Source: Stigmatella aurantiaca (GTDB lineage Bacteria; Myxococcota; Myxococcia; Myxococcales; Myxococcaceae). Taken from it: a stretch of 64,000 nt of DNA. Of the stretch, positions 44,373-64,000 are shown one piece after another. The stretch covers positions 1-64,000 of the forward strand of contig NZ_FOAP01000011.1 in the NCBI RefSeq assembly GCF_900109545.1. The letters run 5' to 3'. The translations under genes and the position numbers were made by a program. The notes under the pieces were generated by a model, which made no database searches, was not told where the DNA came from, and worked only from the letters and a program-made list of their open reading frames with translations. Each line of letters starts with the position of its first letter. Position 1 is the stretch's first letter.

Positions 44373-44554
44373 TGCCATGCGGACCCGGCGGGGATCCACG
44401 CAAGGGTTCCCCTGGAGATGGGATCAGCCGTCATGGCGTTGTCCCCGTAAACCTGTGACGTGATTCATAGGCGATGGGCGCTCAACCGCAGAGCATGGAG
44501 TCACAGCGGGGAAAACCTAGAGAGGCGTGGCCACTTCTTGAGGGAAGAGCAGCC

Positions 44555-47500
44555 ATGGCACACTTCCCCCATCCACTGACTGGCCTGCTGGAGAGCAGGT
44601 ATCACGACGGAGAGCCCATGGTGCGCAGGGGGGGGTACGCGCTTCATCAAACCATTCATGAGAGTGAGCGCTCGCTCATCATCCGGGCGACCCGGCTCAA
44701 GGACGAATGCCCGGTCCTGCTCAAGTTCCCTGTCAGCGACTACCTCGATCGGCGCCGCATCCTGGAACTCCGGCGTGAGTACGCCATCTCCCGCCGCGTC
44801 GAGGGGGATGGGATCGTCCGGGTGCTCGGACTTGAGGAGTTTCCCGACCGGCCGGGGCTCGTCCTGGAGGACTTCGGCGGCGCTTCTTTGAGCCAGGTGC
44901 TGAAGCAGCGTGTGCGGCTGGACGTGGAGACCTTCCTGGACTTCGCCTTGCGCATCACCACAGCGCTCGGCCACATCCACCGCAAAAGCGTCATCCACAA
45001 GGACATCAAACCGCACAACATCATCGTCAACCCCCAGACAGGGGTTCTGAAACTCACGGACTTCTCTCTTTCGGTGGCCCTTGCTCGGGAAGTGGTCTCC
45101 CCCGAGAGCCTCACGCATCTGAGGGGTACGCTGGCTTACATGGCCCCTGAGCAGACGGGGCGCATGAACCGGGCCGTGGACTCCCGCGCGGACTTCTACG
45201 CCTTGGGCGCCACCTTCTTCGAGATGCTCACCGGCCGGCACGTCTTCCCCACCAGCGTGCCACTGGAGTTGCTCCACGCCCACGTCGCCCAGCTTCCCTG
45301 CTCACCACAAGAGGTGGTCGCCGGCATTCCCTCTGTGCTGGCGGACATCGTGCTCAAGCTGCTGGCCAAGGATCCGGAGGACCGTTACCAGAGCGCCGCG
45401 GGGCTCATCGCCGATTTGGAAAAGTGCCGGCTCCAGCTTCAGGAGGGAACTGCCGGGCGCACCTTCACCTTGGGCTCCGCGGACCGTTCCCAAGGCTTCC
45501 AATTGCCGCAGGGGCTCTACGGGCGTGCCTCGGACATTGAACTGCTGACGGAGTTACATGCGCGCGCGGCAGCCGGACGTTGCCAGTTGCTGCTGATCAC
45601 CGGCTCGGCGGGCATTGGCAAGTCCTCCCTGGTCAACGAGCTGCACAGGACCACGGTGGCCAGCCAGGGGCGGTTTGCTTCAGGCAAGTGCGATCAGCTC
45701 CATCGGGGGGTGCCTTTCGACGCCGTTCTTCAGGCGCTGCGGCATCTCGTGCGCCAGACCCAAACCGAGGAGCCAGCGCAGGTGGCCTTCCTGCGCGAGC
45801 GCCTGTTGGAGACGCTCGGCTCGAACGCGGGGGTGCTCGTCGAGGCCGTTCCCGACTCTCGCGCGCTCCTGGGGGAGCAGCCTCCGGTGGTCCCGCTACC
45901 GGCGAACAGCGGCCACGGCCGGCTCTCCCTGGTGCTGGCGCGCGCGATCCAGGCGTTCGCCATGCCGGGCCAGCCGCTCGTGCTGTTCCTGGATGACCTG
46001 CAGTGGGCCGACAGCGCCACCCTCGGGTTGGTGCAGACGCTCGCGCATGGTCCGGACAGCCATCACCTGCTGCTGGTGGGCGCCTACCGGGACGTCGAGG
46101 TCTCCGAGACTCACCCCCTGTCACTCATGCTCAATGAGTTAAGCGCCTCGGGCACGCCGCCTCAGACCCTCTACCTGGCGCCACTGGGCCCACGAGAGGT
46201 GGCTCAGCTGGTGGGTGACGTCACGGGTGCAAGCGAGCCACAGGCCCTGGAGCTGGGGAGCCTCATCCACACGAGGACAGGAGGCAACCCCTTCGTCGTC
46301 AAGGAGTTCCTTCGGTTCCTGTACGAACAAGGCTTGCTGCGCGCCAGCTCGCGCGGCACGGGGTGGGAATGGGACTTCTCCGAGCTCAAGTCCCAGGAGA
46401 TTCCAGAGGACGCGGCGGGGCTGATGGCGGTGGAACTCCGCCGGTTGCCTCCAGACACAGTGGAGTTGCTGCAGCTGGCCTCATGTCTGGGGGTCGTGTT
46501 CGGATTCCGCGACCTCACGATCGCCCACGGCGCCACGAGCGCGGAGACGGCGCGCGTGCTCTGGAGCGCCATTGAGCGTGGGCTCGTGCTGCCACTCAGC
46601 CCTGATTACCTGCTGCTCGATCCCCACGGGGATACCGTGTCCCCGGATTTCGATGTGCCCCTGCGCTTCCTCCACGATCGGGTGCGCCAAGCGGCCTACA
46701 CGCTCAGCCCCGAGGCCGAGCGAGCCACCTGCCACGTGCGGACGGGCTTGCGTTTGTACGAGGACGCCCGCGCCGCGGGGAAGTTGGAAGAGCGGGCGTT
46801 CACCTTCTTGCCGCACCTGGGCCATGGTCTGGAGCGCATCGCTCCAGACATGCGGCTCGAGCTGGCCGACCTCCACCTGCGGGCGGGGCAGCGGGCGAAG
46901 GCCTCGGGCTCGTACCGCACCGCATGCGAGCTGTTCCGCGCCGGCAGCACCCTGCTGCCCGCTTCCCCCTGGGAGCATGAGCACGATCGGTCCTTCGCGC
47001 TGCACTTGGAGTACGCGGAATCCAGTTCCCTGGCGGGGGATTTCGAGGTGGCCAGCACCTACTTCGAGACGCTGCGGGCACAGGCGAACACCCCGGCCCA
47101 GCGGGCCATGGTACTCGGCCTGCGGGCTCAGCTGGCCGCCCTGAACAACCAGTACGCCGAGGCGCTGGAGTTGAGCCTCGAGGGCTTGCGCATGCTGGGC
47201 GTCGAGTGCCCAGCCTCGCTGGACATGGCGCAGCTGTCGGCTCAGCGGCGGGAGGTTTCGGGCCTGCTGAAAGGGCGCGAAGTGGCGGAATTGCTCCAGT
47301 TGCCCCGGCTGAACGATCCTCAGGTGGCGCTGATTCATGGCCTGCTGGCCGCCGCCGTGATCCCCACCTACTTCGTGGCACAGCATGCCCTCATGTGGCT
47401 GGCGCTCCAGCTCGTCAAGCTGTCGCTGGAACACGGCAACAGCCGCTTCTCCCCCTACGGTTACGTGCTGCTTGGCTTTATTCACTCCAGTGAGTTGGAT

Positions 47501-49975
47501 GACCCATTCACGGGGCAGGAGCTCGGGCAGCTGGCCATCGAACTGACCAGCCGCTTCCAGGATCCGATGGCCCAGGCCCACGTGCGCTTTGTGCATTCAG
47601 CCTTCATCAACCACTGGGTGCGAGGCTCCCGGACCAGTGTGGAGCTGCTCACGGCGGCCTATAAAGACGCGATGGAGGGCAGAGATTGGAAGCGGGTGGC
47701 GCACTGCCTCATCGTGCGAGCCTCGCTGCGGCTCTCTCTGGGGGATCCCCTCCCGGAACTCCTGGAGGAGAACCAAAAGTTCCTTGAGCTGCTGAAGCCG
47801 TTCAAGGATCACGGCAATCTCACCACCTTCCGGTACCTCCAACAGACCGTGCTGATGTTGACCGGCGCCGAGAAAGTCCCCGAGCATTCGCCCGACATCC
47901 AGTGGCCGCTGTCACACGCGTACCAGGCAGTCCTGCTGACCGAGCAGCACTACCTGATGGGCCGGCCCAAGCAGGCGCTGGAGAGTGCTGAGGCAGCCAT
48001 GCCTTGGCTGGTCTCCGTCACCGGCCAGGCCTTGCTGGTGACGCATGCGTTCTATCATGCCATGAGCGCAGCGGCAGTGTCCCTGGACGATCCTCGGACC
48101 CTGGAGCCACTGCTCGCGGTGATAGAGAAACACCTCGCCTATCTGGAGAAGTGTGCTCACCGGGCTCCGGAGAACTACGCGCCCCACCACCTCCTGGTCC
48201 GCGCGGAGTTCGCCCGCGTGAGGCGGCAGGAGCAGGAAGCACTTCAAACGTATGAGGAGGCCATTGCCGCCGCTCGCGAGAGCAGGCTCCCCAATATGGA
48301 AGCACTCGCCTGTCAACAGGCCTGCAGCCTCCAGGTGGAGCGGGGACGGCGGCCCCATGCCTACGCCTATCTGCTGGAGGCACTCAATGCCTGTGAGCGC
48401 TGGGGCGCTTATGGAAAGGTCAACCAACTGTTGGCCGAGCACGCGTCTCTGCTACGCACCTATGGAGGGGCTGCTGGCCGATGGGGCGCGGTGGCGCGGC
48501 TGAAGCCCGCGGAGACTGGCGCCGGGGCCACCTCCGAGTCACGCAATGAAATGCTGGATATGACCTCCGTGATGAAAGCTTCGCAGACCATCTCCAGTGA
48601 GTTGCAGTTCTCACAGTTGGTGGCCAACCTCATCAGCATCGTCATGGAGAGCGCCGGGGCGCAGCGAGGTGTGCTGGTACTCAAGCGGGAGCAGGACTTC
48701 TTCGTCGAGGCGGTAGCGGAGGTGGGCAACCGCGACAGCCCCCTGATGCCTTCTCAGCCCGTGGCCCTCAGCGATGCGCTTTGCCATGCCATTGCGCATC
48801 AAGTCCTGCGCACCGGTGCCACCGTGGTGCTGGATGACGCGTGTGTTCAGGAACCCTTCCGCACGGACGTCTACATTTCCCAGCGCGGTGTACGCTCGGT
48901 GCTGTGCGCCCCCATCTTCCACCGCAAACACTTGCTCGGCCTGTTCTACCTGGAGAACAACCTGGCCGCTGGGGCTTTCAACGGCAGCCGCCTCGAGGTG
49001 CTTGGCATTCTCTCGGCCCAGGCCGCGATCTCCATCGAGAATGCCGCGCTGTATCGCGAGCTCGAGGAGCACAGCCTCAACCTTGAGCGGCGCGTCACCG
49101 AACGCACCGATCAGCTCCACCTGACGAATGCCCAGCTGCGGCACACGCTGGAGACGCTCAAGACCATAAACGCACAGATCCTCACCCAGGAGAAGCTTGC
49201 CTCGTTGGGTGTGCTCACCGCAGGCATCGCGCACGAGCTGAGGAACCCGTTGAACTTCATGAGTAACTTCGCCGAACTCTCACTGGAGTTGCTTCAGGAA
49301 TTGGCGGAGGATCTGGGTGGCGACACAGAGCTCCCGTCCCTCTGGCGTGAACGGCTCCTGGCCTTGCTGAATGAGCTGACGCGGAACTCCGTCAAGGTGT
49401 GTGAGCACGGGCACCGCGCCACCAGCATCATCGACGGGATGTTGAGGCATGCGCGCACCCACCAGGGGGAGCGGAACCTGACCGACATCAACCAACTGGT
49501 GGATGAGGCCGTTCGCTTCATCCAGCATGGGCTGCGCTCTCAGACCCCCAAGGTCGAGGTCACCATCGAGACCGAACTCGACTTCTCCGTGCCCCCATTG
49601 CCCCTGGCCGCCGAGGACATCCGCCGGGTCATCCTCAACCTGCTAGACAATGGCTGCTACGCGGCCCACCACAAGGGACGGCGGCTCGGGCCGGCCTCGG
49701 TGCCCCGGGTGAAGGTATCCACGCGGTGGACAGGCAGCGAGGTGGAGATGCGGATACGCGACAATGGGGAGGGCATTCCTCCGGCTGTCCGGGACCGGCT
49801 CTTCACCCCCTTCTTCACGACCAAGCCTCCGGGGAAAGGAACCGGGCTGGGCCTGTCCATCAGCCACGACATCATCGTCGTCACCCACGGCGGTACGTTG
49901 CGCGTGGAGTCCGAGGAGGGACAGTACGCGGAGTTCATCCTCACGCTGCCGGGCGAGGCCAGCTTGTCTTCGTGA
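44555..49975 (+). CDS. Hybrid Ser/Thr kinase - AAA ATPase - GAF - histidine kinase
   Basis: An 1806-residue signalling protein. Kinase domain about 25-290: VLLKFP lysine, HKDIKPHN (His148) in place of HRD, DFSLS in place of DFG, MAPEQTGRMN. AAA/predictor-type ATPase from about 315: Walker A GSAGIGKSS (350-358), Walker B LFLDDLQWAD. A long helical-repeat region follows to about 1350. GAF about 1365-1520, then HELRNP with phospho-His at about 1560 and an HATPase (LNLLDNGCYA, DNGEGIPP, GTGLGLSIS). No receiver. ATG 44555 has GGGAAG upstream; an in-frame ATG at 44474 lacks one. Confidence 0.92.
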   Translation: MAHFPHPLTGLLESRYHDGEPMVRRGGYALHQTIHESERSLIIRATRLKDECPVLLKFPVSDYLDRRRILELRREYAISRRVEGDGIVRVLGLEEFPDRPGLVLEDFGGASLSQVLKQRVRLDVETFLDFALRITTALGHIHRKSVIHKDIKPHNIIVNPQTGVLKLTDFSLSVALAREVVSPESLTHLRGTLAYMAPEQTGRMNRAVDSRADFYALGATFFEMLTGRHVFPTSVPLELLHAHVAQLPCSPQEVVAGIPSVLADIVLKLLAKDPEDRYQSAAGLIADLEKCRLQLQEGTAGRTFTLGSADRSQGFQLPQGLYGRASDIELLTELHARAAAGRCQLLLITGSAGIGKSSLVNELHRTTVASQGRFASGKCDQLHRGVPFDAVLQALRHLVRQTQTEEPAQVAFLRERLLETLGSNAGVLVEAVPDSRALLGEQPPVVPLPANSGHGRLSLVLARAIQAFAMPGQPLVLFLDDLQWADSATLGLVQTLAHGPDSHHLLLVGAYRDVEVSETHPLSLMLNELSASGTPPQTLYLAPLGPREVAQLVGDVTGASEPQALELGSLIHTRTGGNPFVVKEFLRFLYEQGLLRASSRGTGWEWDFSELKSQEIPEDAAGLMAVELRRLPPDTVELLQLASCLGVVFGFRDLTIAHGATSAETARVLWSAIERGLVLPLSPDYLLLDPHGDTVSPDFDVPLRFLHDRVRQAAYTLSPEAERATCHVRTGLRLYEDARAAGKLEERAFTFLPHLGHGLERIAPDMRLELADLHLRAGQRAKASGSYRTACELFRAGSTLLPASPWEHEHDRSFALHLEYAESSSLAGDFEVASTYFETLRAQANTPAQRAMVLGLRAQLAALNNQYAEALELSLEGLRMLGVECPASLDMAQLSAQRREVSGLLKGREVAELLQLPRLNDPQVALIHGLLAAAVIPTYFVAQHALMWLALQLVKLSLEHGNSRFSPYGYVLLGFIHSSELDDPFTGQELGQLAIELTSRFQDPMAQAHVRFVHSAFINHWVRGSRTSVELLTAAYKDAMEGRDWKRVAHCLIVRASLRLSLGDPLPELLEENQKFLELLKPFKDHGNLTTFRYLQQTVLMLTGAEKVPEHSPDIQWPLSHAYQAVLLTEQHYLMGRPKQALESAEAAMPWLVSVTGQALLVTHAFYHAMSAAAVSLDDPRTLEPLLAVIEKHLAYLEKCAHRAPENYAPHHLLVRAEFARVRRQEQEALQTYEEAIAAARESRLPNMEALACQQACSLQVERGRRPHAYAYLLEALNACERWGAYGKVNQLLAEHASLLRTYGGAAGRWGAVARLKPAETGAGATSESRNEMLDMTSVMKASQTISSELQFSQLVANLISIVMESAGAQRGVLVLKREQDFFVEAVAEVGNRDSPLMPSQPVALSDALCHAIAHQVLRTGATVVLDDACVQEPFRTDVYISQRGVRSVLCAPIFHRKHLLGLFYLENNLAAGAFNGSRLEVLGILSAQAAISIENAALYRELEEHSLNLERRVTERTDQLHLTNAQLRHTLETLKTINAQILTQEKLASLGVLTAGIAHELRNPLNFMSNFAELSLELLQELAEDLGGDTELPSLWRERLLALLNELTRNSVKVCEHGHRATSIIDGMLRHARTHQGERNLTDINQLVDEAVRFIQHGLRSQTPKVEVTIETELDFSVPPLPLAAEDIRRVILNLLDNGCYAAHHKGRRLGPASVPRVKVSTRWTGSEVEMRIRDNGEGIPPAVRDRLFTPFFTTKPPGKGTGLGLSISHDIIVVTHGGTLRVESEEGQYAEFILTLPGEASLSS

Positions 49976-51760: not shown

Positions 51761-55942
<4,182 letters not shown>

Positions 55943-55958: not shown

Positions 55959-56810
55959 TCAGCGAATCAGGCCTTCCTGGATGCCCTGAGGACCGGTCCC
56001 GACGCCTCCGAGCCCTGTCAGCGCCGCAGTGAGCCGCTTCTCCTGCTCGGCGCTGATCACCGTTCCCCGAATCGAGAGGGTGCGCAGGCCAGTGAACGTC
56101 GCGAGCGTGTTGACGCACGCGTCGGTCACCCGCGTGTAGCCCAGGTACAGCCGCTCAAGGACGGGCGCCAGGGGCGCGAGCGCGGCCACCCCGGCGTCCC
56201 CCACCCCAGTCTCCTGAAGACTCAGTGCCCGGAGGCGCTTCAGGCCGGTTAGCCGGGCCAGCCCCGCGTCGGTGATCCGGGTCCCACGCAGATCCAGGGT
56301 CTTCAGCGACGGCGCCAAGGCCAGCCGGGCCAGGCCAGCATCGCTCACCTCGGTCCAGCCCAGGTGCAGCGTCTCGAGCGAGGGCAGCCCGGCGATCACC
56401 TCGATCGCGCGATCGGTGATGGCCGTGCCCGCCAGGTTGAGCGAGCCGAGTGATGTGAGCTTGCCGAGCGAGGCGGCCCCGGCATCCGTGATGCGGGTGT
56501 TGAACAGGTCGAGGATCTTGAGGTGGGGGGCGGCCTGAAGGTGAGCAAAGGCCTCGTCATCGAGCTGCCGGCACCCCGCCAGGGACAAGCCTGGAATGCC
56601 CTTGGCCGAACTCTCGGCGACGAGCTCCTTCAGGAACCACGCCGGCATGCGGGGATCGGGATGGCTGGCATACCAGGGGGCATCCGCGGGGATGGAAACA
56701 GGCTTGCGCGCCCCGGACTCATCCTCCTCCAGGGTGTAGCCGAGCGGCTTGTCAATGCCCCAGAAGATCTGCTCGTAGACGCGAAGGGCCAGCTCGGAAC
56801 TCAGGTCCAT
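55959..56810 (-). CDS. Leucine-rich-repeat (RNI-like) protein in the PKS operon
   Basis: A 283-residue soluble protein. The N-terminal 80 residues contain WGIDKPLGYTLEEDE and WYASHPDPRMPAWFL. From about residue 100 there are about seven repeats of 23-24 residues of the form LxxLDLxxTxITDAGLAxLxxL, like cysteine-containing/RNI LRRs. No signal peptide. The ATG at 56810 has GAGG upstream and overlaps the hydrolase stop by 10 bases. LRR proteins bind proteins; a role in assembly-line scaffolding is a guess. Confidence 0.8.
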   Translation of the reverse strand: MDLSSELALRVYEQIFWGIDKPLGYTLEEDESGARKPVSIPADAPWYASHPDPRMPAWFLKELVAESSAKGIPGLSLAGCRQLDDEAFAHLQAAPHLKILDLFNTRITDAGAASLGKLTSLGSLNLAGTAITDRAIEVIAGLPSLETLHLGWTEVSDAGLARLALAPSLKTLDLRGTRITDAGLARLTGLKRLRALSLQETGVGDAGVAALAPLAPVLERLYLGYTRVTDACVNTLATFTGLRTLSIRGTVISAEQEKRLTAALTGLGGVGTGPQGIQEGLIR

Positions 56811-57715
56811 TTCGGTGACCTCATGAAGTTGGAAGCGAAGAGGGCGGCCTGCTGGGCGAACTCCTCTGGCCGCTCCTGGGGCCAGAAGTGCGAGGCCCCT
56901 TTGCAGGTGTGATGACGGGCGCCTGGGATGACACGGGCGGCGATCTCGGCCATGGCCCCGTAGACCGGGTTGCTCTCGTCGGCCGAGGTGACGAGCACCG
57001 GGCACTTCACGTCGAGCAGGCGCTCGAACTCGCGGCCCGGGTAGCGGTTCTCCATGGTCTGGAAGATGGGGACCAGCATCTCGGCCTCGGCGGCGGGCAG
57101 GCAGCAGGACTCGACGCCCCCGCCCTCGACGTCGCGATAGCCGTATTCGAGCTGGGCCCGCAGCAGCTCTGGATGCCAGCGCTGGAGTGGCGAGCGCTTG
57201 CGCAGCATCTCGAGCGCGGCGTCACGGCTGGAATAACGGCTCAGGCGGTACTGAGTGCGGTTGATGAGCCCCTGGCACAACTCCGACACGGTGGGATCCG
57301 GATCGCGCTTGGCCCGTGGATCCTGGACGGTGGGCTCCACGGCGAGGATGCCCGCGAAGGCCTCCGGCCGAATGCCTGCGGTCAGGAGCATGTCCGTGGC
57401 CCCCGAGCTGTGGCTGATGCCATAGGCGCCGCGCACGCCGAGGGTGTCGAGGAAGAGGCTCAGATCACGGCTGAAGACCTCGAAGGCGCAGCCGCGCTCG
57501 TCCACCGGAGCGCTGCGCCCGTGGCCGCGGCGATCCAGGGCGTAGACGGTGTAGTCACGCGCGAGTTCGCGCGCCAGGAGCATCCACGAGGCGCCCACGA
57601 AGCCCAGCCCATGCGTGAGCACCACGGCCGGACGCCCCTCCTGGGGCTCGTTCCAGCGGAGGTAGTGAATCCTCGTCCCGTCACTGGCAATGAAGTGGGA
57701 GGAAGGCTCGAGCAT
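56801..57715 (-). CDS. Alpha/beta hydrolase of the PKS operon
   Basis: A 304-residue alpha/beta hydrolase. Oxyanion region LTHGLGFVGASW, nucleophile elbow GISHSSGA (SxSxG rather than GxSxG), acid TSADESNPVYG, and histidine GASHFWPQE. Length and cap-like insertion (about 150-210) fit small-molecule esterases or thioesterase-like enzymes. ATG 57715 with GAGGA upstream; 10 bases after the radical SAM stop. It may release, lactonise or edit polyketide intermediates; no thioesterase domain is seen in the PKS proteins here. Confidence 0.82.
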   Translation of the reverse strand: MLEPSSHFIASDGTRIHYLRWNEPQEGRPAVVLTHGLGFVGASWMLLARELARDYTVYALDRRGHGRSAPVDERGCAFEVFSRDLSLFLDTLGVRGAYGISHSSGATDMLLTAGIRPEAFAGILAVEPTVQDPRAKRDPDPTVSELCQGLINRTQYRLSRYSSRDAALEMLRKRSPLQRWHPELLRAQLEYGYRDVEGGGVESCCLPAAEAEMLVPIFQTMENRYPGREFERLLDVKCPVLVTSADESNPVYGAMAEIAARVIPGARHHTCKGASHFWPQERPEEFAQQAALFASNFMRSPKWT

Positions 57716-57725
57716 CGGTGGTTCC

Positions 57726-59141
57726 TCAGGTGCCGGACAAGGCCGCGGGCCGCGCCGAGGCACGGAGCGAGCTGCTCAGCTCGGCGATACGCTCGCGCGA
57801 GAGCAGCGTCTGGATCATGGGCGTGTAGAACACCCCATCCCCCACCAGGCGCAGTTTCCTGCCCTCGAGCGCGACGAAGCCGCGCTCGGTCAGGGCCTGC
57901 CAGGCGCCAGCATACTCGTCCATGAGCTCGACCCCGAACGCCCGCTGATAGGCGTCGAGATCGACTTCCAGTCCCTGCAGGTTCCGGAAGAGCTGGGACA
58001 GGCGGTAGTCGACCTCCTGGTGGGTGAACCCATGTTCGAGCGGGATCCGTCCCTCGTCGATGGCCTTGTAGTAGTCCTTGATCGAGGTGTGCTGCCGGTA
58101 GGTCCAGGCTCCCCTGCCTCCCGCCCCCGTGAACTGGGACACGCCCGCGTAGCCCCAGCCGAAGATGTCCGTGGCGCGGAAGTCGCGTTCGCACTCCTCG
58201 TAGAGGCGCTGCTCCGGGGCGTCGATCTTCTCCCAGTCGTAAGGGGTGAGCTGGACGTAGCCGCAGCTCTTCAGGAAGTCCCGCGAGACCCGGTACATCT
58301 CCAGATTCTCGGCCACCGACGGCAGCTCATGACGCCGGTTCAAGGCGAAGTCGGTCGGTCCACCGACGTTGAGCTCATAGTGGGTGATGTGGTGGATCCC
58401 GGTGCTCACCAGCAACTCCAGGTCCTTCATCATGGTGGACACGGTCTGGCGCGGCCATCCGAAGATGAGGTCCACGTTGCAGGGCAGCCCGAGTTCCTGG
58501 CACCACTCAATGGTCTGAAGGGTGTGCTTGACAGTCTGCTTGCGGCCGCTGAGCGCGTTCAGCTCGTCATTCATCTGCTGCACGCCCATGCTCACGCGGT
58601 TCATCCCGCTCTCTTTGATCTTCTGCAGTTTCTCGCGCGTGAAGAGCTGAGGGATCCCCTCAAGGGTGATGGAGACGCCGGCCGGCAGCGTGAAGTGCTC
58701 CCGCACCAGGTCCATGAGCTGGGGGTACCTGTCGGCGCGGTAAAGGTTGGAGGTGCCGCCGCCGAAGTAGATGTTGACGACCCGATCCTTCTCGAACAGG
58801 CCCCGGTACAACTCTCCCTCGCGCCGCAGGTAGGAGAAGTACGTGTCCAGGTCGTTGTTGCCGGTGTAGACCTCGACGGGAAACAGGCAGTAGCCGCACC
58901 GGTCCGGATCCGTGCGAATGCAGTAGGGAACGGCGACGTACAGGGCCAGGTCATGGCTTTCCTGCGCCGCCTTGCGCGCTTCGAGCCGCTCGCGCACCGG
59001 AATATCGGTCTCCTGCCACATCCGCGGCGACGGGAAGGCGTGGAGGACCTTGTTCACCTGGCGGACATTCAGGTTGCGTTCGATGAAGTCGCGCGCGGCC
59101 TCGGCCGAGGAGCGCGCGGGCCTGCCCACGGACGGGCTCAT
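57726..59141 (-). CDS. HemN-like radical SAM enzyme with atypical cluster spacing
   Basis: A 471-residue radical SAM protein of the HemN/coproporphyrinogen dehydrogenase-like class. The cluster ligands are Cys74, Cys82 and Cys85 in YCIRTDPDRCGYC, C-x7-C-x2-C instead of C-x3-C-x2-C. It keeps the SAM motif YFGGGTSNLY, the PQLFTREKLQ segment, NRVSMGVQQMND and the GLPCNVDLIFGWPRQT strand. The C-terminal winged region (EVDYRLSQLFRNLQGLEVD) is present. It overlaps the PKS gene as ATGA and so belongs to the pathway, not to haem synthesis. HemN-like enzymes perform cyclopropanation or methylation in some natural products. Confidence 0.85.
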   Translation of the reverse strand: MSPSVGRPARSSAEAARDFIERNLNVRQVNKVLHAFPSPRMWQETDIPVRERLEARKAAQESHDLALYVAVPYCIRTDPDRCGYCLFPVEVYTGNNDLDTYFSYLRREGELYRGLFEKDRVVNIYFGGGTSNLYRADRYPQLMDLVREHFTLPAGVSITLEGIPQLFTREKLQKIKESGMNRVSMGVQQMNDELNALSGRKQTVKHTLQTIEWCQELGLPCNVDLIFGWPRQTVSTMMKDLELLVSTGIHHITHYELNVGGPTDFALNRRHELPSVAENLEMYRVSRDFLKSCGYVQLTPYDWEKIDAPEQRLYEECERDFRATDIFGWGYAGVSQFTGAGGRGAWTYRQHTSIKDYYKAIDEGRIPLEHGFTHQEVDYRLSQLFRNLQGLEVDLDAYQRAFGVELMDEYAGAWQALTERGFVALEGRKLRLVGDGVFYTPMIQTLLSRERIAELSSSLRASARPAALSGT

Positions 59142-62100
59142 GACTGCCCCCTTTCGAAGGAGCCGTTGCCGAACGTCTGGGTGAGCAGGTGGGCCGCCAG
59201 CGATTCGGTGCTCTCGTAGTCAATGACCAGGTTCTTCGGAAGCTCGCAGCGGAGGTTCTTCTGGAGCCGGTACTGGAGCTCCACGGAGCCCAGGGAACTC
59301 ATGCCCAGCTCGAAGTACATGAGCCCACCGGAGATCTCGCTGCTCTCGACCCCCATGATGTCGGCGACCTGGTTGGCGAGGAAGGAGACCATCAGGTCCC
59401 AGCGTTTCACGGGTGAGGCCTCGACGAGCTGGTGCAGGATGTCGGCGCCGTCCTGCCGCTCCGAGGCCGCCTCGCGCATGCGTGAGCGCTCCACGCCCTG
59501 CATGCGCAGGCCCACGATCTCGAGCGCGGGCGAGCCATCGGCGGCAAACACCGAGAGCGCCGCGCTGTACTCCAAGCCCTTGCCGAGGCTGACCTCCACG
59601 CGGGCCGACGCCTCGTTGCCCAGAGGTTGGCGCAGGCGCACCCGCTCGATCGCCACGGGCAGGTAGGCCATCTTGATGGCATTGCCCGCGGCGAATCGCG
59701 TGGTCAGTGCGGCGCCGATGGCCTGAAAGCAGCCATCGAGCAGCGCCGGGTGGGCCACGTGACGAGCGCTCACCGGTGACGCACCGGGGCTCTCTTCCGC
59801 AGGCAAGGCCACGCGCGCCATGGCAACGCCGGAGCCGTGGGGTCCTTTCCGAAGCGTGGTGATGGACCGGAAGGGGCCTGTGTAGCCCATGCCACGCTCG
59901 GTGAGGAGCCGGTAGAAGTCCGCCGGGGCGAGCTCGCTCTCCCCCTCCAGCTTGAACTCGACGCTGCCGGTCCCCTCGAGCGACGGCGAAGGCTGGGCCT
60001 GGCCCGACGTGTCACACCGGGCCTCGCCGCGCGCGTGGAGGAGCCAGGGCAGACGCTGCTCTTCCTCGCCATCGCCCAGGAAGGGCTGACTGTGGATCTC
60101 GAAACGGAACCGCTCCTCACCGTTCTCGCGAGACACAGGCATGAGCAGCAGTTGAACCCTGCGCTGGCTGTCCTCGGGCAGGATCAGGGCTCGCTCGAAG
60201 AGTACGTTCTCGAGTTCGCACGGAAACGAACCCACCACGGCGCGCAGCGCGGCCAGGGCCATCTCCACATACCCAGTCGCCGGAAACACCGTGAGGCCGT
60301 AGATGCGGTGGCCCGACAGGTAGGCAGGCGACTCGGAGCTCAGGAGTCCTTCGAACTGCGCGCCAGCCAGGGGCGACTGCAGGCGCCGGCCGAGCAGCGG
60401 GTGGCCCTTGGCCTGCTTGGGGGCTTTCTTTGACTGCGAGTTAGAAGGCACGAGCCAGTGGCGTTTGCGCTCGAAGGGATAGGTGGGCAGGAGCGCCTTT
60501 TTGGCCAAGCGGCGCTCATGGAAGCCCGCCCAGTTCAGCTCAACCCCGTGGGCATACAGTGCAGCGGCGCTCTCCACCATGCGCCGCGTGTCATCCCCGT
60601 CCCGAGTGAGCGACCACAACCAAGGCTGCTCTTCACCCTCTGCCGAGGGACTGGTCAGCGACGCGCGCGCCAGGGGGATGAGCGTGGGATGAGGCCCGAT
60701 CTCCAGGAAGGTGGACACGCCCAGCTCCGCCATCGCTCGCATCCCCTGCTCGAACAGCACCGGCTCTCTCACGTGCTTGCGCCAGTACGCTGCGTCCGGG
60801 GCCTGCCCCGCCTGGAACGCCTGCCCCGTCACATTCGAGATCAGCTTGCAGCGCGCTGGCCTCGCCACCACCGGGCGCGCCACCCGCTCGAACTCCTCCA
60901 GCATCGGCTCCATCTGCGCCGAGTGGAACGCGTGCGACACCGTCAGGGCCTGCCCCTTGTACCCCTCCCTCTCCAGCCTCCCCACCACCTCCTGCACCGC
61001 CTGCTTCTCACCCGACATCACCGTGCTTCTCGGCCCGTTCTGCGCCGCGATGGACACCTGCCCTCCTCCGGCCGCCTCCATCGCCTCTCTCACCTTCTCC
61101 ACTGGCGCCTGCACCGACACCATGCTCCCCTTCGAGGGCAGCGCCTGCATCAACCGGCCTCTCGCCGCCACCAGCTCCAACGCGTCCTTCAGCTCCAGCA
61201 CTCCCGCCACACACGCCGCCGCGAACTCCCCCACGCTGTGGCCCACCACCGCGTATGGCCTCACTCCCCAGCTCTCCCACAGCCGGCTCAGCGCGTACTG
61301 CACGCTGAAGAGCGCTGGCTGCGCGTACTGTGTCTCGTGGATCGTCCTCTCCTCGGGCCCCGCGAACATCACCTCCAGCAGTCCCTTGGGCAGCTGCCCT
61401 TTCAGCCCCTGTGCGCACGCCTCCAGCGCCTCTCGGAACACAGGTTCCTGCTCGTACAGCCCCCTTCCCATCCCCGCGTACTGCGAGCCCTGTCCCGTGA
61501 ACAGGAAGCCCACCTTGGGCTGCATCCGGGGCCGCACGTTGCCTCGCAGGAGGTTCTTGTCCTCGCGGCCGTGGCGCAAGGCATCGAGCGCGGCTTCGAG
61601 CTCGCGGCGCGAAGAGGCCACCACCGCCGCGCGATGCTCGAAGTGGTGGCGCCCCGTCGCCGCCGTGAACGCCAGGTCCGCCAGCTCATCGCCCAGAGAC
61701 TCTCGCGTGTGCCGGGACCAACGGCCCGCCAGCTCCGTGAGGGCCGGGCGCGTACGTGCCGACAGGGGCACGATCTGCACCGGGCGCAAGGGCAGCGGAG
61801 GAGCTGGGGGCTCGGCGGGACTCGCCCCTTCCCCCAGGCTCGCGCCATCACCCGCCTCCGCGCCTTCCGTGGCCTCCGACGCTTCCTCCTCGCTCACGGA
61901 CTCCACGAGCACGTGGGCATTGGTGCCACTGAAGCCGAAGGAACTCACCCCTCCAACGCGCCTGGAGCCGTGTGTACGCCACGGGCGCCGCTCGGTGGGG
62001 ACCTGCAGCGGCAAGGAGCCAAGGTCGATGTTGGGATTGGTCCGCTGCAGGTGAAGGTGCGGGAAGATCTCGGCGTCGCGGACCATGAGCACCAGCTTGA

Positions 62101-63229
62101 TGAGCCCGGCAATACCGGCCGCGGCCTCCAGGTGTCCCACGTTGGTCTTGGCCGAACTCACCACGACGCGATTGGCCGCCGCTTCCCGTTCGCGGAAGAC
62201 CGCTCCCAGCGCCAAGAGCTCCTGAGGATCCCCCAGGGCCGTGCCCGTCCCGTGGACCTCGACACAGTCGATATCCCCAGGGCCGTATCCGCCCATCTTC
62301 CACGCGCGCTGCACCACTTCCCGCTGCGCCAGCCCGTTGGGCGCGGTGAAACCCTGGCTCCGGCCATCGTGGTTCACCGCCGAGCCCGTGATGAGGGCAT
62401 GGATGATATCGCGGTCCCGCCGCGCATCCGACAGCCGCTTGAGGACCACCATGCCGCTGCCCTCGCTCCGGCCATACCCATCGGCCCGGGCATCGAAGGT
62501 CTTGCAGCGGCCATCCGGCGCCATCATGCCGGCCTGGGAGAACCCCATGAAGCCATAGGGAGCAATGAGCGCGTTCACCCCCCCTGCCAGGGCACAATCC
62601 ACCTCCCGCGCGCGCAGGCTCTGGCAGGCATTGTGGACCGCCACCAGCGACCCGGAGCACGCCGTGTCGATGGCCTCGCAGGGGCCCTTGAGATCAAAGA
62701 AGTACGACACCCTGCCCACGGCGGCGCTGTGGGACAGGCCGGTGTTGGTATAGCCATCCGGCGAGTGGATATCGGTCAGTTCCAGGTAGTCGAAGGTCGC
62801 GATGCCCACGTACACGCCGGTCTGGCTTCCCGACAACACCGCGGGGGGCATGCCGGCCGATTCGAAGGCCTCCCACGCCAGTTCGAGCAGCAGGCGGTGC
62901 TGGGGATCCATGGCCTCGACCTCGCGAGGCGTGAGGCGAAAGAACCCAGCGTCGAAACGATCAATGTCCTGGATGAAGCCACCATGCCGGGTGGAGATCG
63001 CGCCAGGAGTGCCCGCCACTGGGCTGTAATAGGCGTCGAGGTCAAAGCGCTCCGGGGGGATCTCTTTGCGGACCTCCATCCCATCGGAGAACAGCCGCCG
63101 GTAGGCCTCCAGGTGAGGCGCGTTCGGGAAGCGGCAGCTCATGCCGACGACGGCGATGGGCTCGGTGGCGTGGCGCTGCAGCTTGCGGGCAAAGCGGCTG
63201 GCGAGCGCGCTCTTTCGTCGGATGGTCAC
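59138..63229 (-). CDS. Modular PKS protein: KS-AT-DH-ACP
   Basis: A 1363-residue cis-AT module. KS about 30-450: DTACSGS (Cys191), HGTGTA, NVGHLE. AT about 560-860: GHSVGEF (Ser665) and HAFH (about 767), the malonyl-CoA pattern. DH about 935-1220: SGHRIYGLTVFP (His about 973) and LLDGCFQ (Asp1165). ACP near the end: FELGMSSLGSVEL, Ser1312, with Ser in place of the usual Asp before it. No KR lies between DH and ACP. GTG start immediately after the previous TAG, GGAGG within the preceding codons. Overlaps the radical SAM gene by four bases. Confidence 0.93.
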   Translation of the reverse strand: MTIRRKSALASRFARKLQRHATEPIAVVGMSCRFPNAPHLEAYRRLFSDGMEVRKEIPPERFDLDAYYSPVAGTPGAISTRHGGFIQDIDRFDAGFFRLTPREVEAMDPQHRLLLELAWEAFESAGMPPAVLSGSQTGVYVGIATFDYLELTDIHSPDGYTNTGLSHSAAVGRVSYFFDLKGPCEAIDTACSGSLVAVHNACQSLRAREVDCALAGGVNALIAPYGFMGFSQAGMMAPDGRCKTFDARADGYGRSEGSGMVVLKRLSDARRDRDIIHALITGSAVNHDGRSQGFTAPNGLAQREVVQRAWKMGGYGPGDIDCVEVHGTGTALGDPQELLALGAVFREREAAANRVVVSSAKTNVGHLEAAAGIAGLIKLVLMVRDAEIFPHLHLQRTNPNIDLGSLPLQVPTERRPWRTHGSRRVGGVSSFGFSGTNAHVLVESVSEEEASEATEGAEAGDGASLGEGASPAEPPAPPLPLRPVQIVPLSARTRPALTELAGRWSRHTRESLGDELADLAFTAATGRHHFEHRAAVVASSRRELEAALDALRHGREDKNLLRGNVRPRMQPKVGFLFTGQGSQYAGMGRGLYEQEPVFREALEACAQGLKGQLPKGLLEVMFAGPEERTIHETQYAQPALFSVQYALSRLWESWGVRPYAVVGHSVGEFAAACVAGVLELKDALELVAARGRLMQALPSKGSMVSVQAPVEKVREAMEAAGGGQVSIAAQNGPRSTVMSGEKQAVQEVVGRLEREGYKGQALTVSHAFHSAQMEPMLEEFERVARPVVARPARCKLISNVTGQAFQAGQAPDAAYWRKHVREPVLFEQGMRAMAELGVSTFLEIGPHPTLIPLARASLTSPSAEGEEQPWLWSLTRDGDDTRRMVESAAALYAHGVELNWAGFHERRLAKKALLPTYPFERKRHWLVPSNSQSKKAPKQAKGHPLLGRRLQSPLAGAQFEGLLSSESPAYLSGHRIYGLTVFPATGYVEMALAALRAVVGSFPCELENVLFERALILPEDSQRRVQLLLMPVSRENGEERFRFEIHSQPFLGDGEEEQRLPWLLHARGEARCDTSGQAQPSPSLEGTGSVEFKLEGESELAPADFYRLLTERGMGYTGPFRSITTLRKGPHGSGVAMARVALPAEESPGASPVSARHVAHPALLDGCFQAIGAALTTRFAAGNAIKMAYLPVAIERVRLRQPLGNEASARVEVSLGKGLEYSAALSVFAADGSPALEIVGLRMQGVERSRMREAASERQDGADILHQLVEASPVKRWDLMVSFLANQVADIMGVESSEISGGLMYFELGMSSLGSVELQYRLQKNLRCELPKNLVIDYESTESLAAHLLTQTFGNGSFERGQS

Positions 63230-64000
63230 CTATTCCTCCCCTTCGAGCAGGTTCGTCAGGAGCCGCTGCTGTTCCGCATCGGACAAGCTCTCGATCGCAG
63301 CGAGGATCGCAGCCACCTTGTCTCCGCTCGCGGACAGGTCCAGGGCCGCGGTGGGCACTGCGGCCTTCGGAGCGGCGGACGGCTCGGCGGGCGTCTTCAG
63401 GACCTCGGCCCGAACGTAGCCGGCCAGGGCCCGGATACTCGGGTAGTCGAAGAGGAGCGTCGCGGGCAAGGTCACCCCAAGGAGCGCGCCGAGCCGGTTG
63501 CGCAGCTCCACCGCCATGAGTGAGTCCAGGCCCAACCGATCGAGCGGCTCGGCGGGATCGATGTAGAGGTCTTCGTCCAGATCGAGCACCCGGCGGATCT
63601 CGGCGGTGAACACCTCCTCCACCTGCTCCGGCGAGACAACCTGCGCGGCCCTGGCCGGCTGCGAGGCCACGGTCCGCTCTCTCACCTGCGCCAGGTGTGC
63701 CAGGAGCGGAGGCGCGTTCTGCGCGGCTCCTCCCAGGTAGCGGTTCCAATCGACCAGCATGACCCCCGCCTGTGCGATGCGGCCCGCGAGCAGGGCCTCC
63801 AGGGCCGCGATCCCCTCGTCCGGGCCGATGGCGTCGATGCCGCGGGCCTCGAGGGGAGTCAGGCGGCGGGCGGCATCTGCGGCGGCCATGCCGACCTCGC
63901 GCCAGATGCTCCAGTTGATGCTCAGGCCGGGCAGCCCCATGCCCCGGCGGTAGTGCATCAGGGCATCCAGGAAGGCGTTGGCCGCGGCGTAGTTGCCCTG
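63230..64000 (-). CDS. PKS protein, 3' part: KR C-terminus and ACP (continues past the window)
   Basis: The last 256 codons of a PKS gene whose start lies beyond the right edge. It opens inside a ketoreductase (QGNYAAANAFLDAL, holding the catalytic Tyr and Asn of the family) through INWSIWREVGMA, then an ACP with LGLDSLMAVELRN. The tail with SLSDAEQQRLLTNLLEGEE looks like a C-terminal docking segment. First visible gene of the operon; its stop is directly followed by the next start. Confidence 0.92.
   Translation of the reverse strand, partial: QGNYAAANAFLDALMHYRRGMGLPGLSINWSIWREVGMAAADAARRLTPLEARGIDAIGPDEGIAALEALLAGRIAQAGVMLVDWNRYLGGAAQNAPPLLAHLAQVRERTVASQPARAAQVVSPEQVEEVFTAEIRRVLDLDEDLYIDPAEPLDRLGLDSLMAVELRNRLGALLGVTLPATLLFDYPSIRALAGYVRAEVLKTPAEPSAAPKAAVPTAALDLSASGDKVAAILAAIESLSDAEQQRLLTNLLEGEE

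Follow-up and report, generated by a model that had tools for sequence, protein, structure and literature searches.

A stretched radical SAM cluster loop in a Stigmatella polyketide locus, and its kinship with the polyketide cyclopropanases

What is a HemN-like radical SAM protein with a stretched cluster loop doing inside a polyketide operon? The question comes from the window, by which we mean the 64,000 nucleotides of Stigmatella aurantiaca DNA analysed here (contig NZ_FOAP01000011.1, positions 1–64,000). On its reverse strand, at 57726–59141, lies an ORF with an ATG start and 471 codons (the stop is included in the coordinates). Its translation reads VAVPYCIRTDPDRCGYCLFPV at the cluster loop: C74, seven residues, C82, two residues, C85, or C74-IRTDPDR-C82-GY-C85, encoded at 58887–58922 on the same strand. 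The frame is backed by codon-position GC of 0.63/0.42/0.90, and Pfam places a Radical_SAM domain at residues 81–244 (E 4.5e-20). Alignments with HemN (1olt) and NocN (9p2u) leave a 4-residue gap exactly at the loop. The initial annotation had taken the extra residues for a genuine loop insertion and not a misread, and they are just that. The ortholog in another Stigmatella species, from an independent assembly, is 87% identical and has an identical loop. Among 44 aligned x7 homologs, T77, P79 and C82-G83-x-C85-L86-F87 are invariant, and the three loop cysteines and the loop itself hold across many phyla. The x7 loop is thus a conserved insertion, neither chance nor sequencing error. The gene is present in 2 of 195 Myxococcota genomes, and the window genome also encodes separate HemN/HemW-like homologs with the x3 motif.

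Who else carries such a loop? A scan of about 85,000 genomes with the motif Y-x-x-x-P-[YF]-C-x7-C-x-[YF]-C, written as a degenerate DNA pattern, matched 68 stretches. About 50 of them are full radical SAM homologs sharing C-[ILPV]-x-T-x-P-x-x-C-G-[YF]-C, and about 16 are chance hits whose frames are short or unrelated. (A protein-pattern scan of the genome contigs gave no match; the peptide patterns were too specific.) Among the loci fetched from 59 related genomes, the ortholog and a few CX6CX2C proteins are the exceptions; every other HemN-like homolog with a readable motif is CX3CX2C. In a tree built without the motif columns, a single branch separates all 53 x7 proteins from the 27 x3 proteins (SH-aLRT 99), a split supported at 100/99 in a smaller, more careful tree. 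The CX3CX2C outgroup was drawn only from HemN-like proteins of myxobacterial relatives, and it is against these that the x7 proteins form one clade; C10P, NosN and ChuW were left out of the tree. Within it, branch A/D takes in Actinomycetota, Chloroflexota, Planctomycetota, Bacteroidota, Acidobacteriota, Rhodobacter, Deinococcus plasmids and the myxobacterium of the window. Branch B holds Acinetobacter, Aquimarina, Delftia, Curvibacter and Paraburkholderia, and branch C deltaproteobacterial/myxobacterial, Gemmatimonadota and Elusimicrobia MAGs.

The CX6CX2C proteins deserve a word of their own. They are HemN-like proteins of Polyangiaceae (L104:8812-11138; also L017 and L029) with the motif PHTxC-x6-CGFCTFPH, and in one genome (G006) a gene of 296 aa lies directly upstream of the CX6CX2C gene. 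As a group they fall with the x7 proteins (99/98), so the wider clade has more than one stretched-loop length. The CX7CX2C spacing is reported as well for PoyB/PoyC-type radical SAM methyltransferases, which are B12-dependent and unrelated (PMC5682303), and is therefore not diagnostic by itself. These belong to a different, cobalamin-dependent family with peptide substrates, in which the spacing presumably arose independently of the HemN-like clade.

The initial annotation had gone on to suggest that the stretched motif, with its place in a polyketide synthase (PKS) operon, may mark a distinct enzyme clade. The clade stands (99 in the larger tree, 100/99 in the smaller), and a PKS-adjacent subclade lies within it, as that reading guessed; the spacing is not confined to PKS operons, and the PKS-linked clade had already been published. 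PKS sequence sits directly beside the radical SAM gene in essentially all branch A loci, and the longer loci show it to be KS-AT-ACP. The sole PKS-linked member without an adjoining PKS fragment comes from a 3.3-kb stretch (L078). In both Deinococcus plasmids the gene's neighbours are KAS III and ACP genes, within a PKS/NRPS cluster. No type I PKS was found in branches B and C, in loci of up to 8 kb (one group B locus, L058, has a FabF-like KS), so the x7 loop marks a clade wider than the PKS-linked one. These PKS-free carriers of the same spacing go part of the way to refuting the initial annotation on its own terms, although they are not ordinary HemN/HemW proteins.

Group B has a regularity of its own. 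Its x7 genes each adjoin a gene for an alpha/beta hydrolase of about 290 aa (L093:3987-6282, L084:2303-4599, L043:520-2795 and L095:3266-5603, with further pairs at L088:5227-7626, L058:2723-5095 and L068:375-2707). The hydrolases share about 28–49% identity with one another (E below 1e-38), and 88% between two Acinetobacter. This is apparently an uncharacterised two-gene unit of Acinetobacter, Flavobacteriaceae and Burkholderiales. We considered whether the hydrolase encoded in the window is their kin; the similarity is weak and local (best E 5e-6), and we claim no shared pairing. Group C x7 genes have genes for class I SAM methyltransferases nearby (L083:1176-2084; L096:4305-5216), an arrangement that resembles the C10P/C10Q pair.

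The enzymes that explain the loop best make cyclopropanes. POP iterative PKSs, which build polycyclopropanated fatty acids, combine a KS-AT-DH-ACP synthase with a stand-alone KR, a cyclopropanase and a TE (PMC13389473, 2026). In their cyclopropanases, Jaw5 of the jawsamycin pathway, Pfl2 of the fuelimycin pathway and Log2 of S. longispororuber, the Cx7CxxC motif is invariant (C68, C76 and C79 in Jaw5), and the Pfl2 and Log2 pathways, which have the same loop, yield cyclopropanes in vivo (PMC13389473). We took the radical SAM protein of S. albireticuli NRRL B-1670 (L051) to be Pfl2 because this is the fuelimycin strain, the genes run PKS, radical SAM, FabG-like KR, and the genome holds one strong homolog; that of S. 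longispororuber (L036) was taken as Log2. The window protein is 49.6% identical to the former over 464 residues and 53.7% identical to the latter. It falls inside the PKS-linked clade (100/99, and 99 by SH-aLRT in the larger tree), as sister to the POP core with somewhat lower support (93/89). Like Jaw5, Pfl2 and Log2, it has the Cx7CxxC motif, a HemN-like fold in its model and a gene directly after a KS-AT-DH-ACP synthase; unlike them, it stands on a sister branch outside the core and has a myxobacterial host. The PKS-linked clade and its motif are known already (PMC13389473). What is new is that a deep-branching member occurs in a myxobacterium, with unusual genes around it, and that the x7 loop reaches into PKS-free relatives.

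That context is an 18-kb unit on the reverse strand (contig 51761–69898). Its first gene encodes a 2222-aa KS-AT-DH-ER-KR-ACP synthase, whose 3' end occupies 63230–64000 of the window and which runs on to contig position 69898. Then comes a KR-less KS-AT-DH-ACP synthase of 1363 aa (59138–63229, domains by Pfam), which overlaps the downstream radical SAM gene by 4 bp. The active-site motifs of this partner synthase are intact (HAFH in the AT, HRIYGLTVFP in the DH, LGMSSL in the ACP), and both adjacent synthases have an AT motif of the malonyl type. Beyond the radical SAM gene, at 56801–57763, is an alpha/beta hydrolase of about 304 aa (Abhydrolase_6, 5e-22; likely start MLEPSSHF), possibly the release enzyme. 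At 55959–57005 is an ORF of 348 aa for a leucine-rich-repeat protein (by Pfam), whose counterpart in the sister species is 79% identical; the true start of the ORF probably lies downstream of its overlap with the hydrolase gene. This LRR gene, unusual for a PKS operon, is kept within the unit. The last gene encodes a 1393-aa acyl-AMP ligase-ER-ACP-KS protein (51761–55942, by Pfam), a candidate loading protein.

The unit departs from the POP layout in several ways. It has an alpha/beta hydrolase where POP clusters have a hotdog TE; it adds the AL-ER-ACP-KS protein, a fully reducing PKS and an LRR gene; it has no adjoining KR of the Pfl3/Jaw6 type; and its partner KS stands outside the tight POP KS clade (100/100 in the KS tree), although forcing it inside is not rejected (p-AU 0.17). 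A search of the contig for a Pfl3-type KR found only KR domains embedded in PKSs, and the best Pfl3-like match in the genome (44% identity) is on another contig. In 8 of 8 POP-core genomes tested, the radical SAM gene has a Pfl3-like KR no more than about 8 kb away. For the deep-branching members from Rhodobacter (L050) and Planctomycetota (L082), no same-contig Pfl3-like KR scored above the cut-off used.

What, then, might the protein do? An AlphaFold2 model (pLDDT 89.5, pTM 0.89) predicts a HemN fold, matching 1olt end to end (VIA Z 34.6, rmsd 3.0, 408 residues aligned; Foldseek E 1.8e-30), with the next best match at Z 15.7. NocN (9p2u) was absent from the structural matches listed; it matches by sequence. 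The residues of NocN that contact SAM I and SAM II are known, and its two-SAM mechanism is established structurally (PMC12871812), as a two-SAM mechanism is for C10P (PMC6050322). NocN Tyr34, Thr101, Arg153, Gly157, Arg171 and Asp196 correspond to Y68, T130, R182, G186, R200 and D224 of the window protein, all kept and all invariant in the x7 family; Y68 is also Tyr56 of HemN. These residues are common to HemN-like enzymes generally and cannot alone separate cyclopropanation from methylation or other chemistry. Taken with the motif, the clade and the gene layout, they make the window protein quite likely a member of the POP cyclopropanase family, acting as a class C (HemN-type) radical SAM methylene transferase.

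The chemistry we propose follows C10P and NocN. The three loop cysteines would hold the [4Fe-4S] cluster that cleaves SAM I, and the resulting 5'-dA radical would likely convert SAM II to a methylene radical. The partner synthase (59138–63229) would make an alkene on its ACP and offer it as enoyl-ACP; the SAM methylene radical would add to an sp2 carbon of this alkene, and ring closure with loss of SAH would leave a cyclopropane, however many rings the product may come to carry. Since a dedicated Pfl3-type KR is absent, we propose that the KR of the neighbouring KS-AT-DH-ER-KR-ACP protein probably serves in trans for the ketoreduction that precedes dehydration. C10P and YtkT are likewise HemN-like, two-SAM enzymes that form cyclopropanes by methylene radical addition. 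They differ in a CxxxCxxC loop and a pyrrole-type substrate, and ring closure by C10P needs a separate methyltransferase, C10Q, of a kind not seen in the window unit.

Could the adduct simply collapse to a methyl or other one-carbon branch, with no ring? A class C C-methyltransferase would add its methylene radical to an sp2 carbon in the same way, and HemN-like NosN, TbtI and CoeI can methylate. The class C methylases (NosN/NocN, TbtI, CoeI), which yield lactones or methyl groups on RiPPs or anthraquinones, have the SAM I and SAM II binding residues of the window protein, so these fit either outcome, and the partner PKS differs from the POP synthases. We nonetheless think this unlikely: the methylases NocN and CoeI have x3 loops, and the window protein groups among proven cyclopropanases, to which it is about 50% identical, with Cx7CxxC in common. 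It is scarcely credible that this is an ordinary haem enzyme of the HemN/HemW/HutW type, in a PKS cluster by accident. The top NCBIfam matches are indeed the STM4012, ChuW/HutW and HemN models, at scores far under their curated cut-offs (160/380, 156/400 and 136/325 bits). E. coli HemN shares the modelled fold over its whole length; it has an x3 loop, 22% identity and a place in the haem pathway. The genome has separate HemN/HemW-like x3 homologs, and the x7 clade is distinct. Nor do we give much credence to a non-functional remnant that has lost cluster binding at its stretched loop. Across many phyla neither the three cysteines nor the loop vary, same-loop Pfl2 and Log2 pathways form cyclopropanes in vivo (PMC13389473), and the radical SAM gene is the most conserved of its unit between species (86.9% against 75–79%).

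A different kind of doubt concerns the wiring. The radical SAM protein and its PKS may belong to one modular PKS/NRPS line (contig 51761–119177) that sets a single cyclopropane at one module; here the chemistry is that of the POP-type cyclopropanase we prefer and only the wiring differs, so that our confidence in the one overlaps with that in the other. The 2222-aa gene and a giant PKS/NRPS operon of about 49 kb (contig 70314–119177) are adjacent and co-oriented, and the partner KS falls among the KSs of its own cluster (96/94). Against a single line stand a 415-bp gap between the two, the inversion of the 18-kb unit as a block relative to the operon in the sister species (G004:C2:1673172-1691344), and its greater divergence (75–87% identity for its proteins, 92–96% for the operon proteins compared). 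On these grounds the 18-kb unit behaves as a separate unit, and we regard the single line as a serious but somewhat improbable arrangement.

A POP-family cyclopropanase, if that is what the window protein is, turns an odd-looking motif into the hallmark of a known enzyme chemistry. It also predicts a cyclopropane-bearing myxobacterial polyketide, from a class that draws interest for antifungals such as jawsamycin and for energy-dense fuels. Beyond this we speculate, with rather more doubt than conviction, that a Jaw5-lineage cyclopropanase has been recruited to a non-POP synthase, with a KR-less module, a KR borrowed from its fully reducing neighbour and an acyl-ligase loader. Cyclopropanation would then have moved outside the classical iterative POP systems. 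The x6/x7 clade at large would consist of many acyl-modifying radical SAM enzymes, most of them uncharacterised, with the PKS-free hydrolase pairs among them. With its variant gene context, the unit offers a natural test for transplanting cyclopropanation to other synthases, and the PKS-free x7 relatives raise the question of their substrates.

Three smaller observations came along the way. In Chloroflexota and Bacteroidota loci (L037, L072 and L056) an NRPS comes after a POP-like synthase and cyclopropanase, in L072 together with a thioester reductase, a layout that suggests cyclopropanated lipopeptide-type products outside Actinomycetota. On one Rhodobacter contig (G201:C108:8946-18428) about 8 kb separates two distinct x7 radical SAM genes (L050 and L081), which would make two cyclopropanase-like enzymes in one cluster. 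And just past the end of the cluster, at 44474–49975 of the window, lies a gene for an 1833-aa fusion of Ser/Thr kinase, AAA, GAF and histidine kinase.
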